Positions 13,346 through 18,989 of a stretch of DNA of 20,365 bases are shown here, in pieces. The notes under the pieces were generated by a model. It saw only the letters and a program-made list of their open reading frames with translations, was not told where the DNA came from and searched no databases. This stretch comes from a virus: positions 1-20,365 of IMG/VR virus record IMGVR_UViG_3300002835_001391; one strand, given 5' to 3'. Position numbers and translations under genes: made by a program. How positions within the stretch are numbered: position 1 is the stretch's first letter; each line of letters starts with the position of its first letter.

Positions 13346-13630
13346 TCAGACGAGCCCCTCGGAGCGTAACTGCGCGATGGTGCGGACCATGCCCTCGAGG
13401 TGGGCCAGCCGCACATAGTCGCGCTCGAGCTCGGTGTGGGAGCGGCGATCGATGGCGTCGTGACAGGCAGAGCAGGCCCATGCTCCAAGCAGGTCGTCGG
13501 CCTTGAGCCCCATGCCGGAGATCCCGGCCATGCGGATGTGCGCCAGGACGACCGTCTCGGAGTTGTGGTTGCAGACGCCGGGGAGCCTGACGGTGCAGCC
13601 CCGGCCTCGTGCCTGCTTGCGTAGGTTCAT
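13346..13630 (-). CDS. YbcO/DUF1364-family phage recombination nuclease
   Basis: This 94-residue protein begins MNLRKQARGRGCTVRLPGVC and contains ETVVLAHIRMAG and GAWACSACHDAIDRR. This arrangement matches the DUF1364/YbcO family of small lambdoid nucleases, relatives of the HNH/beta-beta-alpha-metal fold and of P1 Ref. Cys12, Cys20, Cys53 and Cys56 could bind structural zinc, and His31, His57 and Asp61 are candidates for the active site. The family normally sits in phage recombination/nin regions, as here. ATG 13630 overlaps the stop of the HTH gene (ATGA). Its stop lies one base from the stop of the convergent fibre gene. It is the last gene of the leftward operon. Confidence 0.85.
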   Translation of the reverse strand: MNLRKQARGRGCTVRLPGVCNHNSETVVLAHIRMAGISGMGLKADDLLGAWACSACHDAIDRRSHTELERDYVRLAHLEGMVRTIAQLRSEGLV

Positions 13631-13836
13631 ACGAGCTCGAGCTGGCCGACGAGCCGGTACCGGGCGTACCGCTTGCCGTTCCGCTCCTCCGTCACGGTCT
13701 GGACATCGAGGCCGGTGGCGCGAAGGTCAGCGACCCGAGCGGCGAGCCGGAAGCAGCCGTAGCGGTCGAGGGCTTCAAGCGGGGTGATATCGCGGCCCGA
13801 TACTAAGTGGGCGCGGATCTGTTCGGTCTGCGTCAT
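13627..13836 (-). CDS. Small helix-turn-helix protein (HTH_39-like)
   Basis: The 69-residue protein begins MTQTEQIRAHLVSGRDITPL followed by EALDRYGCFRLAARVADLRA and a basic beta hairpin (GKRYARYRL). This is the layout of the small winged-HTH proteins common in phage recombination and replication operons (HTH_39 type): helix, 'tPleAl..ygc.RLaarI..Lr..G' HTH, then wing. It probably binds DNA, but its target is unknown. ATG at 13836 is preferred over upstream in-frame starts because GGAG lies eight bases upstream and it overlaps the stop of the NinB-like gene. A longer reading to 14178 would run through NinB-coding DNA out of frame and is rejected. Confidence 0.75.
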   Translation of the reverse strand: MTQTEQIRAHLVSGRDITPLEALDRYGCFRLAARVADLRATGLDVQTVTEERNGKRYARYRLVGQLELV

Positions 13837-14246
13837 GTGTGTTCTCCATAGGACGGTTCGGGTATCACGATGCCGAGCTCTGCGGCGCGGCGGGACAGGA
13901 ACTCGAGGTAGTCGGAGAAGTCCTGCTTGTTGAGTCGGGACGAGCGGCGCACCGGCTTGTGGACGGTCTTCCCGCCGAGCGTGAGCGTCTCCCAGCCGAA
14001 GTGCTCGCCGAGCATGAACTCGTGCAGGTCGTCCTTCTGCCAGCCTGCCAGCGCCTCCCCGCCACCCTCGAGGATGGACGGGTAGACGACGCCCCAGAGG
14101 AAGGCGTTCTGCATGTCCGAGCGCCGGGGCTTGAACTCCTCCAGCGTGACCTTCCAGGACTTGCCGGGGTCTAGCCACCGCACCATGACCGAGATCGCCG
14201 AAGCGATCTGGTCAGGCGTGGTGCCTTTGGGGAAGATGCGGTTCAT
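13833..14246 (-). CDS. ninB: NinB-like recombination mediator
   Basis: The 137-residue protein has the core features of the NinB (Orf) family. These are WKVTLEEFKPRRSDMQNAFL (residues about 31-50, the R-S-x-x-Q-N-x-x-L-W element) and HFGWETLTLGGKTVHKPVRR, followed by SRLNKQDFSDYLEFLSRRAA and an ending ELGIVIPEP. NinB/Orf of lambda binds single-stranded DNA and SSB and can replace RecFOR functions during recombination. It lies within a cluster of Erf, exonuclease, SSB-tail and nuclease genes, supporting the role. ATG 14246 has GGGAG upstream. The stop overlaps the HTH gene start. The family call is from motif recall; the middle part differs from lambda NinB. Confidence 0.7.
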   Translation of the reverse strand: MNRIFPKGTTPDQIASAISVMVRWLDPGKSWKVTLEEFKPRRSDMQNAFLWGVVYPSILEGGGEALAGWQKDDLHEFMLGEHFGWETLTLGGKTVHKPVRRSSRLNKQDFSDYLEFLSRRAAELGIVIPEPSYGEHT

Positions 14247-14259
14247 CTACGCTCCCGCC

Positions 14260-14556
14260 TCAGAACGGGATATCGTCGTCGATGAACTCCTCGGGCTTCT
14301 GCTCCGCGAGGGTCTTCGGGCGCTCGTGCTGCTGCTGCTTAGGCTTGAACTTGAGCCTCATGTAGGTCTTTCCGGCCTTGCTCTTTTGCAAATAGCCATC
14401 GACAAAGTGCAGCACCCCGTTAATGTCGGCCTCGCCGCTATAGTCGGAGTCCTTCATAACCCATTCGGTGCCGTCAGGGTTTTTCATGGCTCGATCTGGG
14501 CGCTTCTCTTCGTTCTTGAAGAGTGCTCCCTTATTCGTGTTGTCGTACTCAGGCAT
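14260..14556 (-). CDS. Small protein with SSB-like acidic C-terminal tail
   Basis: The 98-residue protein begins MPEYDNTNKGALFKNEEKRP and has a compact beta-rich core (GEADINGVLHFVDGYLQKSK, AGKTYMRLKFKPK). A flexible Gln/Lys/Glu linker leads to a final EFIDDDIPF. The terminal DDDIPF is the same kind of tip as bacterial SSB, the docking peptide for SSB-interacting repair proteins. Phages often encode proteins starting 'eYDNTNkGaLFkN' with no assigned function. The tail and the neighbours (Erf, exonuclease, NinB) suggest a single-strand-binding or scaffold role; this is inference. The ATG at 14556 is preferred over an in-frame ATG at 14562 because AGGAG is eight bases upstream of the former and only two from the latter. 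Confidence 0.7.
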   Translation of the reverse strand: MPEYDNTNKGALFKNEEKRPDRAMKNPDGTEWVMKDSDYSGEADINGVLHFVDGYLQKSKAGKTYMRLKFKPKQQQHERPKTLAEQKPEEFIDDDIPF

Positions 14557-14561
14557 AGTCA

Positions 14562-14768
14562 TCACTCCTGGTTGATGGAAACGGGGCGACCGACGAGACG
14601 GTGTCTCTCGTCGCCGAAAGCCTCGGCTGCGTCGAGCGCGGCCTGTGCGTGGTTGATGTCGAGGTAGGGGTTCGGCTTGTGGCCGACGTGCTCCAGAACG
14701 TGCGCCGGTACGTCCTCCCACCCGCCCCAGCCCTCGCGCTGGATGAAGTACCCGGTGACGAGGGTCAC
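14562..14768 (-). CDS. Hypothetical 68-aa protein
   Basis: I do not recognise this family. A GTG at 14768 overlaps the stop of the YqaJ-like exonuclease gene (GTGA), giving VTLVTGYFIQREGWGGWEDV and then a short helix-rich sequence ending LVGRPVSINQE. There is no independent Shine-Dalgarno, so translation is probably coupled to the exonuclease. A longer reading from 15035 is Arg/Pro-rich shadow of the exonuclease gene and is not supported. Aromatic residues in the first 25 positions and a YLDINHAQAALDAAEAF helix suggest a small folded domain. Its place between exonuclease and SSB-tail protein implies an accessory recombination role. Confidence 0.6.
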   Translation of the reverse strand: MTLVTGYFIQREGWGGWEDVPAHVLEHVGHKPNPYLDINHAQAALDAAEAFGDERHRLVGRPVSINQE

Positions 14769-15373
14769 AGGCGCACCGTCTGCAAGTGCTCGACCCGGTC
14801 CCGCAGCTCGGTCAGGAACCGCCCGACCTCGCCCGCGATCTCGGCGATGACGCCCTCGTCTCGCGGGACCCGGATGACGAGCAGGCGCAGATGCTCCGGG
14901 AGCCGTGGGTCGAAGGCCACGAAGTCGCACCAGTTGCGACCGGTGCAGGCCATCTGCCACTGCATCTGCAGGAGGTACTTGCGGGGGACGGAGCGGTCCT
15001 CGATGTACTCGAGCATCGTGGCCGTGTTCGGACACTTGATCTCGATGAGGCCGTCCTCGCCGACGAGCCCGTCCGGGGACGCCCCGGCCTCGAGGATGGG
15101 GTGGCGCACGAAGTCCACCTCGTCCACCAGAACGCCCTCTCGCGCCTCGTAGGCGGCTCTGGCGACGGGCTCTAGCTCGATGCCCCTGTCCATGGCGGGG
15201 CTCTTATAGCCCTCCGTGGGCTGTCCTGTGAGGCGTTCCGTCAGGAGTTCGGCCATGTACCCGCTGCGGGAGGCCGACGCGCCGGTCTTGGTCTTCGCCA
15301 TGACGTCGGCTATCCGGCTGGCGGTCACGAGCCCGAGCCGCTTGGCGAACCATTCGGGGGTGCGCTGCTCCAT
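14765..15373 (-). CDS. YqaJ-like / lambda-exonuclease-family viral recombinase nuclease
   Basis: The 202-residue protein belongs to the PD-(D/E)XK exonucleases of the YqaJ/lambda Exo type. It has RTPEWFAKRLGLVTAS near the start (residues 4-19; the R-x-x-E-W-x-x-x-R-x-G-x-x-T-A-S element). GIELEPVARAAYE follows (64-76), with Glu68 a probable metal ligand. The catalytic core is SPDGLVGEDGLIEIKCP (99-115), with Asp101, Glu111 and Lys113. MQWQMACTG helps close the site. These enzymes degrade the 5' strand of double-stranded DNA ends, leaving a 3' overhang for an annealing protein. The partner Erf gene is directly upstream (TGATG junction). ATG 15373 is chosen because homologous sequence begins there; upstream extension falls into Erf DNA out of frame. 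Confidence 0.88.
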   Translation of the reverse strand: MEQRTPEWFAKRLGLVTASRIADVMAKTKTGASASRSGYMAELLTERLTGQPTEGYKSPAMDRGIELEPVARAAYEAREGVLVDEVDFVRHPILEAGASPDGLVGEDGLIEIKCPNTATMLEYIEDRSVPRKYLLQMQWQMACTGRNWCDFVAFDPRLPEHLRLLVIRVPRDEGVIAEIAGEVGRFLTELRDRVEHLQTVRL

Positions 15374-15918
15374 CAGCCGAGCTCCTTCTTGCGGGCGGCG
15401 AAGATGCCGGAGGACGCCTGACGCTGCGCCTCGGTCAGCCCCTTGAACAGGGCGGTGAGGTCGGCGAGGGTCTGGCACTCGGCCACCTTCTTGGCGAGGT
15501 CGGGGTCGGGCTTGGCCTCGGGCTTGCCACGGGCCTGCGCCGCCTCGGCATCGTCGTCGATCTGGGCGAGGCCCACTATGGCGGCGAGGGCGTAGCGGCG
15601 GGCGTAGGTGATGCCCGAGCCCTGTCCCTGCGGACCGGCGTCCTTGGTCAGGATGGGCAGGTACCCGCGCATCCATTCCCCGGACGAGTGCGCGAGGGTG
15701 GTCACGAGGATGGCCCCGGTCTCGCCGATCTCGGTCGTCTGGATGACGGCGAGGTCGTTGGCGGCGAGCTGCTTGCGGCAGGCGTCCCAGCAGGACGCGA
15801 GGTCCGCGTACTTGGACTTGAAGAACGGGTTGGCGCTGTCCTTCAAGGCTCCGGTGATGTCGGCCTGCGCCTTCGAGAGGGCGGCGGCGAGGGCGGCAAT
15901 GGATTCAGACTGGTTCAT
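15373..15918 (-). CDS. erf: Erf-family single-strand annealing recombinase
   Basis: The 181-residue protein has the ERF superfamily core. It contains NPFFKSKYADLASCWDACRK (residues 30-49), LVTTLAHSSGEWMRGYLPIL (71-90) and GSGITYARRYALAAIVGLAQ (100-119), followed by the acidic DDDAEAA. A Lys/Pro/Asp-rich linker and a helical C-terminal segment complete it. ERF proteins form rings that anneal complementary single strands during phage recombination and genome circularisation. The exonuclease that would supply the single strands is the next gene. ATG 15918 has AGGAA with an ACAC-rich leader. It lies 14 bases inside the end of the 43-aa gene, so this gene has both its own ribosome binding site and coupling. 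Confidence 0.9.
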   Translation of the reverse strand: MNQSESIAALAAALSKAQADITGALKDSANPFFKSKYADLASCWDACRKQLAANDLAVIQTTEIGETGAILVTTLAHSSGEWMRGYLPILTKDAGPQGQGSGITYARRYALAAIVGLAQIDDDAEAAQARGKPEAKPDPDLAKKVAECQTLADLTALFKGLTEAQRQASSGIFAARKKELG

Positions 15919-16759: not shown

Positions 16760-16788
16760 TTGTATCCATCTTTTTTTTGCCGTATGCT
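16760..16788 (+). promoter_or_regulatory. Rightward early promoter candidate
   Basis: TTGTAT (16760-16765) and TATGCT (16783-16788) are separated by 17 bases. The spacer contains a run of eight T (16771-16778) that would bend the DNA. The match is moderate (three of six and four of six), but the -35 lies three bases from the -35 of the leftward promoter, forming a compact back-to-back switch. It would transcribe the cro-like gene. Confidence 0.4.
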
Positions 16789-16813
16789 TCCGGTCGTTAA
16801 CAACGGAGGTCTT

Positions 16814-17053
16814 ATGACTGTCGATGAACTTGTCAAGAAGTACGGCAACCAAAGCGCCATTGCGCGGCGGTTCGGTGTCACGCGGGCAGCGGTATCGAAG
16901 TGGGCGCGTGTTGGCGTGCCGGAGCGGTATGCGTTGCGTGAGCTTGCCGGTGAGGTTGTGGCCGAGCTCAAGGAAGAGGACCAGTCGCGCAGCACTCGGC
17001 GGCTGATTCGCAAGATCGAGGCTGGGCTGCGGCCTACGCCGGACAGCCCATGA
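16814..17053 (+). CDS. Cro-like transcriptional repressor
   Basis: The 79-residue protein has a helix-turn-helix at residues about 12-34. KYGNQSAIARRFGVTRAAVS is followed by KWARVGVPERYALRELAGE, the pattern of P22-Cro/YdaS-type phage repressors ('saiAr.lGVtr.aVSkW...vPe.ra..l'). It probably binds the adjacent dyad and switches the divergent early promoters. The start at 16814 is chosen for the GGAGG four bases upstream; an in-frame ATG at 16760 would lie in the -35 region. The C-terminal part is charged and basic. Its stop overlaps the next ATG (ATGA). No second, larger repressor gene lies in this control region, so whether the phage is temperate cannot be decided here. Confidence 0.8.
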   Translation: MTVDELVKKYGNQSAIARRFGVTRAAVSKWARVGVPERYALRELAGEVVAELKEEDQSRSTRRLIRKIEAGLRPTPDSP

Positions 17054-17531: not shown

Positions 17532-17702
17532 GTGAATAAAATTTTGACCGAGTACGACGTGCGAATGATTCGCCGCGCCGTGCAAAAAAGAAACCGCGTT
17601 CGTCGAGACCTTTGCAATAAGTCTATAGCGCGGAGGCTGGGTGTTTCAGTGCAAACCGTCCGCAACGTCATCAAGGGCGCTCGTTGGGGCTGGGTCAAAT
17701 GA
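17532..17702 (+). CDS. 56-aa helix-turn-helix DNA-binding protein
   Basis: A GTG at 17532 opens a 56-codon frame ending in TGA that overlaps the next gene's ATG. The product has a basic N-terminal helix (YDVRMIRRAVQKRNRVRR) and an HTH, NKSIARRLGVSVQTVRNVIK, followed by GARWGWVK. This resembles the small phage regulators whose last residues read 'G.rW..V'. It is a probable local regulator of the transglycosylase-like gene with which it is coupled. GAGAG about six bases upstream supports the GTG; an ATG at codon 12 is an alternative start. Sequence features support the HTH strongly and the exact start moderately. Confidence 0.65.
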   Translation: MNKILTEYDVRMIRRAVQKRNRVRRDLCNKSIARRLGVSVQTVRNVIKGARWGWVK

Positions 17703-18439
17703 TCCACTACCACGGCCTGCCGATGACGCCTCTTGCAGACATGGTCCGAGCGCTGACTGCGCGACACGCGATGGTGAGTTTCGAGCACCCTAGTCAAGCA
17801 GAGATGGCCGCAGAAATCTGCCAGTCGTTCGTGCTGGACAATGGCGCGTTCAGCGCGTGGAAGCAAGGCAAGGCATACGACTTTGACGGTTATCAAGAGT
17901 GGGCCGAGCGATGGATGCGGCACCCGGCGATGGATTGGTGCGTCATCCCAGATCGGATTGATGGTTCAGAATCCGACAATCGCGAGCTCGTGAAAAACTG
18001 GCCGCTGCCGCTTGCCGTATCGGTGCCTGTTTGGCACATGCACGAAAGCCTGGAATACCTCGACTTCTTGATGCGATGGCCGCGCATCGCGCTTGGCTCC
18101 TCTGGTCAATTTGCGACCGTCGGTGATGATCGGTGGTGGGGCAGAATCGCCGAGGCGATGCGAGTGCTGTGCGACGAGGCCGGGCGCCCGAGGGTCAAGC
18201 TGCACGGACTGCGGATGCTAGATCCTGGCGTGTTCAGCAAGTTGCCGCTGTCGTCCGCCGACAGCTGCAACGTCGCACGGAACGCCGGAATCGACCAGAA
18301 GTGGCGCGGCCCCTACACCCCGCGCACCCAGTATGGCCGGGCGTTGATTTTGATGGAGCGCATCGAGCACCACGCGAGCTGCGCGTATTGGTCTGCCGAT
18401 GCGATGGGGGCTTATACGAATTTGGAACTTTTCGGATAA
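17699..18439 (+). CDS. Transglycosylase-like (TGT/DpdA superfamily-like) conserved phage protein
   Basis: The 246-residue protein starts at ATG 17699, inside the HTH stop (ATGA). Motifs in order are: FVLDNGAFSAW (44-54), CVIPDRIDG (81-89), VPVWHMHES (109-117), IALGSSGQF (130-138), VKLHGLRMLDP (166-176) and PLSSADSCNVARN (183-195). The sequence 'D-x-G-A-F, P-D, G-S, H-G, S-A-D-S' along a TIM-barrel-sized chain parallels the tRNA-guanine transglycosylase superfamily, where Asp47 and Asp188 would be candidate catalytic residues. DpdA members of that superfamily put 7-deazaguanines into DNA. I recall homologues in many phages without assigned function. No queuosine-type synthesis gene is in this window. 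The superfamily call is inference from motifs. Confidence 0.5.
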   Translation: MIHYHGLPMTPLADMVRALTARHAMVSFEHPSQAEMAAEICQSFVLDNGAFSAWKQGKAYDFDGYQEWAERWMRHPAMDWCVIPDRIDGSESDNRELVKNWPLPLAVSVPVWHMHESLEYLDFLMRWPRIALGSSGQFATVGDDRWWGRIAEAMRVLCDEAGRPRVKLHGLRMLDPGVFSKLPLSSADSCNVARNAGIDQKWRGPYTPRTQYGRALILMERIEHHASCAYWSADAMGAYTNLELFG

Positions 18440-18473: not shown

Positions 18474-18989
18474 ATGAACGAACTCGATGAAGCATCGTGG
18501 GAGAGATGGGTCGCCTTCAGGAAGGCCATCCGCAAGCCCATCAAGCCGATCAGCGAACACGCGATGAAGCTCAAGCTCGCTCGGTTCGGCGACGACCAAG
18601 CGGCGGTAGTTGACCAGTCGATCGCAAACCAATGGCAAGGGTTGTTCGAAATCAAGAAGGCCGCGCCGCGCCCCGGCGAGAAGGTCGAGAAGACCGACAA
18701 GCAGAAAGCCGCCGACATCGCCCGTCACGCCGAACAAGACGAGTGGGCGGCTCGAATCTGGGGCAAGCAGGAGCCGACACCCATCAACCGGCTGAAGCTC
18801 TGCGAGGCGTACCTCGCGCGGTTGACCATGCGCGAGCCGGATGCGGACGCGATGGAGCGCGTGAAAGACGCGGCGGCTGCTGCGATCCGTGACGCAGACC
18901 CGAAGGAGGTCATCGGCAACCCGCACCTTGCGGGGATGGTGCGGCAGCTGTTCGGCGAGCGCGGTCTTGCGAGGCTGCGGAACCGATGA
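18474..18989 (+). CDS. Replication-associated protein (O/DnaT-type C-terminal-like)
   Basis: The 171-residue protein begins MNELDEASWERWVAFRKAIR and has KPIKPISEHAMKLKLARFGD and QSIANQWQGLFEI (48-60). The pattern 'W..f...Rk...KP.s..a....l..l......a.v.dqSI.ngWqGLf' is frequent at the C-termini of phage replication initiators and helicase-loader proteins. The rest is a Lys/Pro linker and a helical domain (NRLKLCEAYLARLTMREPDA onward) ending GLARLRNR. It may recruit the host helicase or act with an initiator outside the window. ATG 18474 has AGGAG eight bases upstream in a CA-rich leader; the in-frame upstream ATG (18399) lies inside the preceding gene. The stop overlaps the next ATG (ATGA). Confidence 0.5.
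   Translation: MNELDEASWERWVAFRKAIRKPIKPISEHAMKLKLARFGDDQAAVVDQSIANQWQGLFEIKKAAPRPGEKVEKTDKQKAADIARHAEQDEWAARIWGKQEPTPINRLKLCEAYLARLTMREPDADAMERVKDAAAAAIRDADPKEVIGNPHLAGMVRQLFGERGLARLRNR

Follow-up and report, generated by a model that had tools for sequence, protein, structure and literature searches.

A short DpdA-like phage protein and the 7-deazaguanine supply genes beside its relatives

Does a phage gene for a lone, short protein of TGT/DpdA type encode a base-exchanging enzyme, and where would its base come from if no synthesis gene accompanies it? We address this question for an ORF in a stretch of viral DNA of 20,365 nucleotides, referred to in its entirety as the window. The ORF is intact, with an ATG at 17699, a stop codon at 18437-18439 and a product of 246 aa. 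This product carries every motif listed in the original prediction (D47-N-G-A-F51, P84-D85, L132-G-S-S-G136, K167-L-H-G170 and S186-A-D188-S-C-N-V-A-R-N195), and it matches PHROG 887 ("queuine tRNA-ribosyltransferase") with an E-value of 1.9e-61, far beyond chance. The gene lies among the following features:

13346-15918, minus strand: leftward gene block with Erf annealing protein (15373-15918), a YqaJ-type exonuclease region and NinB (13833-14246)
16760-17053, plus strand: Cro-like HTH regulator gene, first of the rightward early genes
17532-17702, plus strand: gene for a 56-aa HTH protein, its TGA overlapping the ATG of the enzyme gene (ATGA)
17699-18439, plus strand: TGT/DpdA-like enzyme gene of short type, PHROG 887, 246 aa; putative catalytic residues D47, D85, H113 and D188
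18474-18989, plus strand: downstream replication O-like/primosomal gene with partial matches to PHROG 678 and 6451, in the same early operon as the enzyme gene

The minus-strand genes for Erf and NinB, together with the Cro-like gene that heads the plus strand, place the enzyme gene in the early region of a podovirus of temperate type; an early position had been assigned to it originally. The O-like ORF has an alternative reading start at 18399. A 2,511-aa protein of the window, which points to the same phage type, has relatives in Cobetia, Xanthomonas CP2-like and Bordetella phages; the ORF at 18986-19546 matches PHROG 3704 ("ferredoxin", E 4e-21) and has no Pfam hit.

Family membership and relation to DpdA and TGT

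Pfam and NCBIfam models gave no convincing match to the enzyme. With tblastn, relatives were found in 226 phage records, including the P22-like phage BTP1, the lambdoid phage SfI and an Acinetobacter Obolenskvirus at 42-52% identity, and IMG/VR holds at least 182 contigs with relatives. Nearly all family members are 240-260 aa long, typically about 245 aa, which rules out a truncated or degenerate gene. The chain had earlier been called short: this holds in comparison with TGT (about 375 aa) and with DpdA from preQ0-cluster phages (306-317 aa), but within its own family the length is the norm. Among 121 representative relatives, D188 is conserved in 119, and nine residues show no variation at all (D47, A50, P84, D85, H113, G133, H169, L171 and R172). 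An SfI-type copy is present in the chromosome of 100 of 5,426 complete E. coli genomes, always at 99% identity or more. A further copy, close to the Salmonella phage versions, lies in a 1.7-kb record labelled as a Staphylococcus phage (OR850331.1), which is probably mislabelled.

With hhalign, a profile built from 43 relatives matched six DpdA proteins of preQ0-cluster phages at a probability of 98.2 and an E-value of 4.5e-14. The alignment pairs D47, H113 and D188 of the enzyme with D63, H132 and D206 of CAjan DpdA, while the partner of CAjan D105 is either D85 or D88, depending on gap placement, with D85 being the invariant one. We take DpdA histidine 196 of the literature to be equivalent to H113 and CAjan H132. 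Direct tblastn of the enzyme against Seuratvirus DpdA, including those of CAjan and VogelGryff, gave E-values of 2e-6 to 2e-7. Deletion of dpdA in CAjan has shown that DpdA is needed for dPreQ0 in phage DNA (PMC6884629). The enzyme has in common with the DpdA proteins of CAjan, Seurat and 9g/JenP2 the fold family, the Asp/His set, the DSGAF/DNGAF motif, a dsDNA phage as carrier and a link to 7-deazaguanine; it differs from them in length, and identity is about 24-27%.

Against TGT the outcome was different: the Pfam TGT model (PF01702) does not match the enzyme, and hhalign of the family with nine TGTs was not significant (E 0.11). DpdA itself aligns weakly with TGT by the same method (E 0.021), so the failed sequence match is not evidence against a TGT fold. 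The C-x-C-x2-C...H zinc site and the C-terminal extension of TGT are absent from both the 246-aa sequence and the family consensus. We rejected identity with a true TGT on the profile results and the missing zinc site. Thus, of the two families proposed at the outset for profile search, DpdA was recovered and TGT was not.

An AlphaFold model of the enzyme is a TIM barrel (pLDDT 89.9, pTM 0.87). In a Foldseek search of the PDB, the top match was Cap10 (9ntn; E 4.5e-5, TM 0.62), and an archaeal TGT (1j2b; E 4e-3, TM 0.57) ranked 24th. The ranks between the two include generic TIM barrels, among them tryptophan synthase alpha, and no DpdA structure was among the matches. Against viral models, Foldseek returned many proteins annotated as queuine tRNA-ribosyltransferases, with TM scores up to 0.70. 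Sequence searches of solved structures gave no significant match for the enzyme family and nothing useful for DpdA. Likeness to bacterial and archaeal TGT would reside in the TIM barrel and in aspartates predicted to sit at equivalent strand ends. Overall, the profile match to characterised DpdA and the TGT-like barrel bear out the superfamily originally proposed, and there is good support for the enzyme as a base exchanger of TGT/DpdA type. Judged by homology, the PHROG 887 branch is a group of short, divergent phage DpdA-like proteins, whose members probably exchange guanine of phage DNA for a modified base.

Supply genes in phage relatives and in hosts

Phages with a singleton DpdA and no biosynthesis genes, including a gamma-proteobacterial cluster, were described by Hutinet et al., who raised the question of their divergence; they form the largest of the phage groups in that study, which left DNA modification by them open and found YhhQ uncorrelated with any phage group (PMC6884629). 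We searched 221 family loci (2.37 Mb) with profiles built in this analysis and identified 69 7-deazaguanine supply genes: 26 encoding YhhQ, 25 queE and 18 queD. All 69 lie on the strand of the enzyme gene and adjoin it, no more than 600 bases away, and none of the 221 loci has two kinds. When loci are collapsed at about 88% identity, 33 of 120 representatives have a supply gene, and the labels require 13 changes on the tree for YhhQ, 8 for QueE and 6 for QueD, indicating repeated gains or losses. This adjacency ties the singleton-type branch to the 7-deazaguanine pathway. It also differs from the picture for Hutinet group 3, since in a subset of members YhhQ, queD and queE are strictly adjacent, an arrangement of which we found no description beside singleton DpdA in the open-access literature.

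A transporter of the YhhQ family (PF02592) scored above cut-off in 9 of 47 phage records with the enzyme gene, adjoining it in all 9. Among the Pfam families of neighbouring genes in about 100 lineages, Vut_1 was the most frequent downstream (9 of 97) and radical SAM the most frequent upstream (6 of 101), with PTPS on either side (3 and 4) and C5-methylases directly adjoining the enzyme gene in 5 lineages. The radical SAM protein upstream in close relatives of the window is QueE by TIGR04322 (NCBIfam; E about 1e-52, under the curated cut-off of that model), and the PTPS neighbours are QueD-like. The CxxxCxxC radical-SAM motif is present in 23 of the 25 QueE proteins. Two QueE-like neighbours have other cysteine patterns, namely Cx14CxxC of another QueE lineage in L207 (7369-7998) and an aberrant spacing in L040 (5919-6524). 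The phage YhhQ proteins are short, at about 155-175 aa (L061, L071, L080, L084, L235). Separately, phages or prophages with a C5-cytosine DNA methylase beside the enzyme gene include L237 (5740-7827), L093, L109 and L080, and three members, including L048, have a PAPS-reductase-type neighbour upstream.

Characterised DpdA phages carry FolE, QueD, QueE and QueC together, whereas in the PHROG 887 family a single supply gene is the maximum and QueC is lacking. No queC scored above cut-off in the 47 family phage records, in a search that detected the CAjan control, and no folE was found in the 221 loci; both absences apply to the sequence present, with limited flanks and many fragmentary records.

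In the window itself, the gene preceding the enzyme gene is that of the HTH protein, and the two overlap at AAATGATC. The enzyme start is NTGA (Met-Ile) in the window and nearly throughout the family (114 of 120 representative loci); an upstream frame of at least 40 codons terminates in the overlapping TGA in 79 representatives. Translational coupling to whatever gene precedes is therefore the rule. The content of the upstream slot varies among relatives and may be queE, queD, YhhQ, Ea22, DUF1317 or others. The window protein groups with those of L004, L009 and L021 (SH-aLRT 97), and the 56-aa HTH gene is kept in part of this clade; queE takes its place in other close relatives, at 66-70% identity. 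One of these, L011 (69% identity), has the early-region layout of the window with queE replacing the HTH gene, and L017, in the cluster of L021, has QueE. Of the coupled, dedicated HTH regulator suggested earlier, the coupling stands, given the ATGA overlap, but a dedicated regulator is rejected, since the upstream gene changes from one relative to the next.

Profile searches of the window and of near-identical contigs found no supply gene, in agreement with the earlier remark that no synthesis gene is visible here, and its base is thus probably supplied by the host. Full-length QueC is encoded in 54 of 57 bacterial genomes that carry relatives. An adjacent YhhQ occurs in two of the three hosts without queC (Rhizobium and Devosia; loci L142 and L147) and in two of the 54 with it (Fisher p 0.011). 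This association fits base import and is suggestive, given small numbers and the fact that two of the three queC-less hosts are related Hyphomicrobiales. Together with the queE, queD and YhhQ genes beside relatives, the presence of queC in these hosts lends strong indirect support to the host-supply idea put forward originally.

Proposed reaction and competing readings

We consider it likely that the window protein is a minimal DpdA-like enzyme of TGT fold that exchanges guanine and 7-deazaguanine, most likely in phage DNA, with the base coming from the host queuosine pathway. In the TGT/DpdA scheme, an aspartate attacks C1', guanine is released, a second aspartate serves as acid/base and 7-deazaguanine is inserted. 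By alignment, D188 would attack C1' and free guanine, forming a covalent D188-sugar intermediate, D47 would be the acid/base, D85 and its neighbours would hold and select the 7-deazaguanine, and H113 would be the counterpart of the histidine in CAjan DpdA. The base inserted would be a 7-deazaguanine, either preQ0 or a pathway neighbour. In relatives, the single adjacent gene would add to host supply, with queD or queE pushing host synthesis and YhhQ importing the base. The modified DNA may then be less recognised by host nucleases, a benefit that we infer from CAjan (PMC6884629).

The choice of DNA as the likely target is drawn from the nearest characterised relatives, which are DpdA, and from the missing tRNA-binding part of TGT. 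The enzyme could instead be a phage TGT acting on host or phage tRNA, with more or altered queuosine-type modification aiding translation during infection. The superfamily and the precursor are shared, and because queD, queE and YhhQ also serve queuosine formation in tRNA, their adjacency by itself favours neither DNA nor tRNA. We nevertheless regard a tRNA target as unlikely, since all 13 host genomes tested already encode a full TGT, the profile of the enzyme fits DpdA and not TGT, with the TGT C-terminal part and zinc site lacking, and phage 9g DpdA failed to restore Q in a tgt mutant (PMC6884629). The fold match to Cap10 raises another reading, in which nucleic-acid exchange has been lost and the protein handles protein-attached 7-deazaguanine, for example interfering with host defence. 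In its published description, Cap10 is a member of the TGT family that has been reshaped to recognise the deazaguanylated N-terminus of a modified protein, in place of nucleic-acid base exchange (PMC11996544). We think this very improbable: the TM scores of Cap10 and archaeal TGT are close, and the matches included no DpdA structure; Cap10 has no sequence match to the enzyme, which retains the DpdA catalytic Asp/His set; and, while type IV CBASS Cap10 partners with a CD-NTase and the QueC-like Cap9, no CBASS families appeared in neighbour scans and the 47 family phage records yielded no queC above cut-off. PADLOC gave no match to the enzyme, and we ruled out a defence-system protein on this basis.

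Salmonella phage 7-11 gp32, a group 3 singleton of Hutinet 2019, is a direct homologue of the enzyme (234 aa, 35% identity, E 9e-29) and the only assayed family member linked to it; that phage has no biosynthetic cluster, and a search for queC in it found none. Its DNA contains just 50 dADG per 10^6 nucleotides (PMC6884629), the chief reservation about the reading that we favour. With this trace level, the activity may be weak or site-limited, or modification may not be the main role. Weak modification in 7-11, and a location among accessory genes close to ea22, DUF1317 or ASCH genes, would also suit a passenger gene of TGT-like fold and lost or unrelated activity that has persisted by chance at accessory sites of temperate phages. 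Against this stand catalytic residues that are invariant despite wide divergence, three different supply genes that repeatedly adjoin the gene, and the conservation of the SfI type over 100 E. coli genomes; we hold the passenger explanation to be highly unlikely. More tentatively, the lone DpdA-like enzyme could be a minimal plug-in module that uses the host queuosine pathway and to which one differing supply gene (QueD, QueE or a short YhhQ) has been added repeatedly. In that case, QueE without QueC could mean that an early intermediate, such as 7-carboxy-7-deazaguanine, is used instead of preQ0, or the target could be other than phage DNA; we see this elaboration as possible, though doubtful.

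For the DpdA-like exchange that we favour, the adjacency of three different supply genes makes the function of the family testable, and the lambdoid E. coli prophages that carry the gene are ready test systems. Should these enzymes act on DNA, temperate phages would modify their bases far more often than is apparent from the small number of phages with a complete preQ0 cluster.
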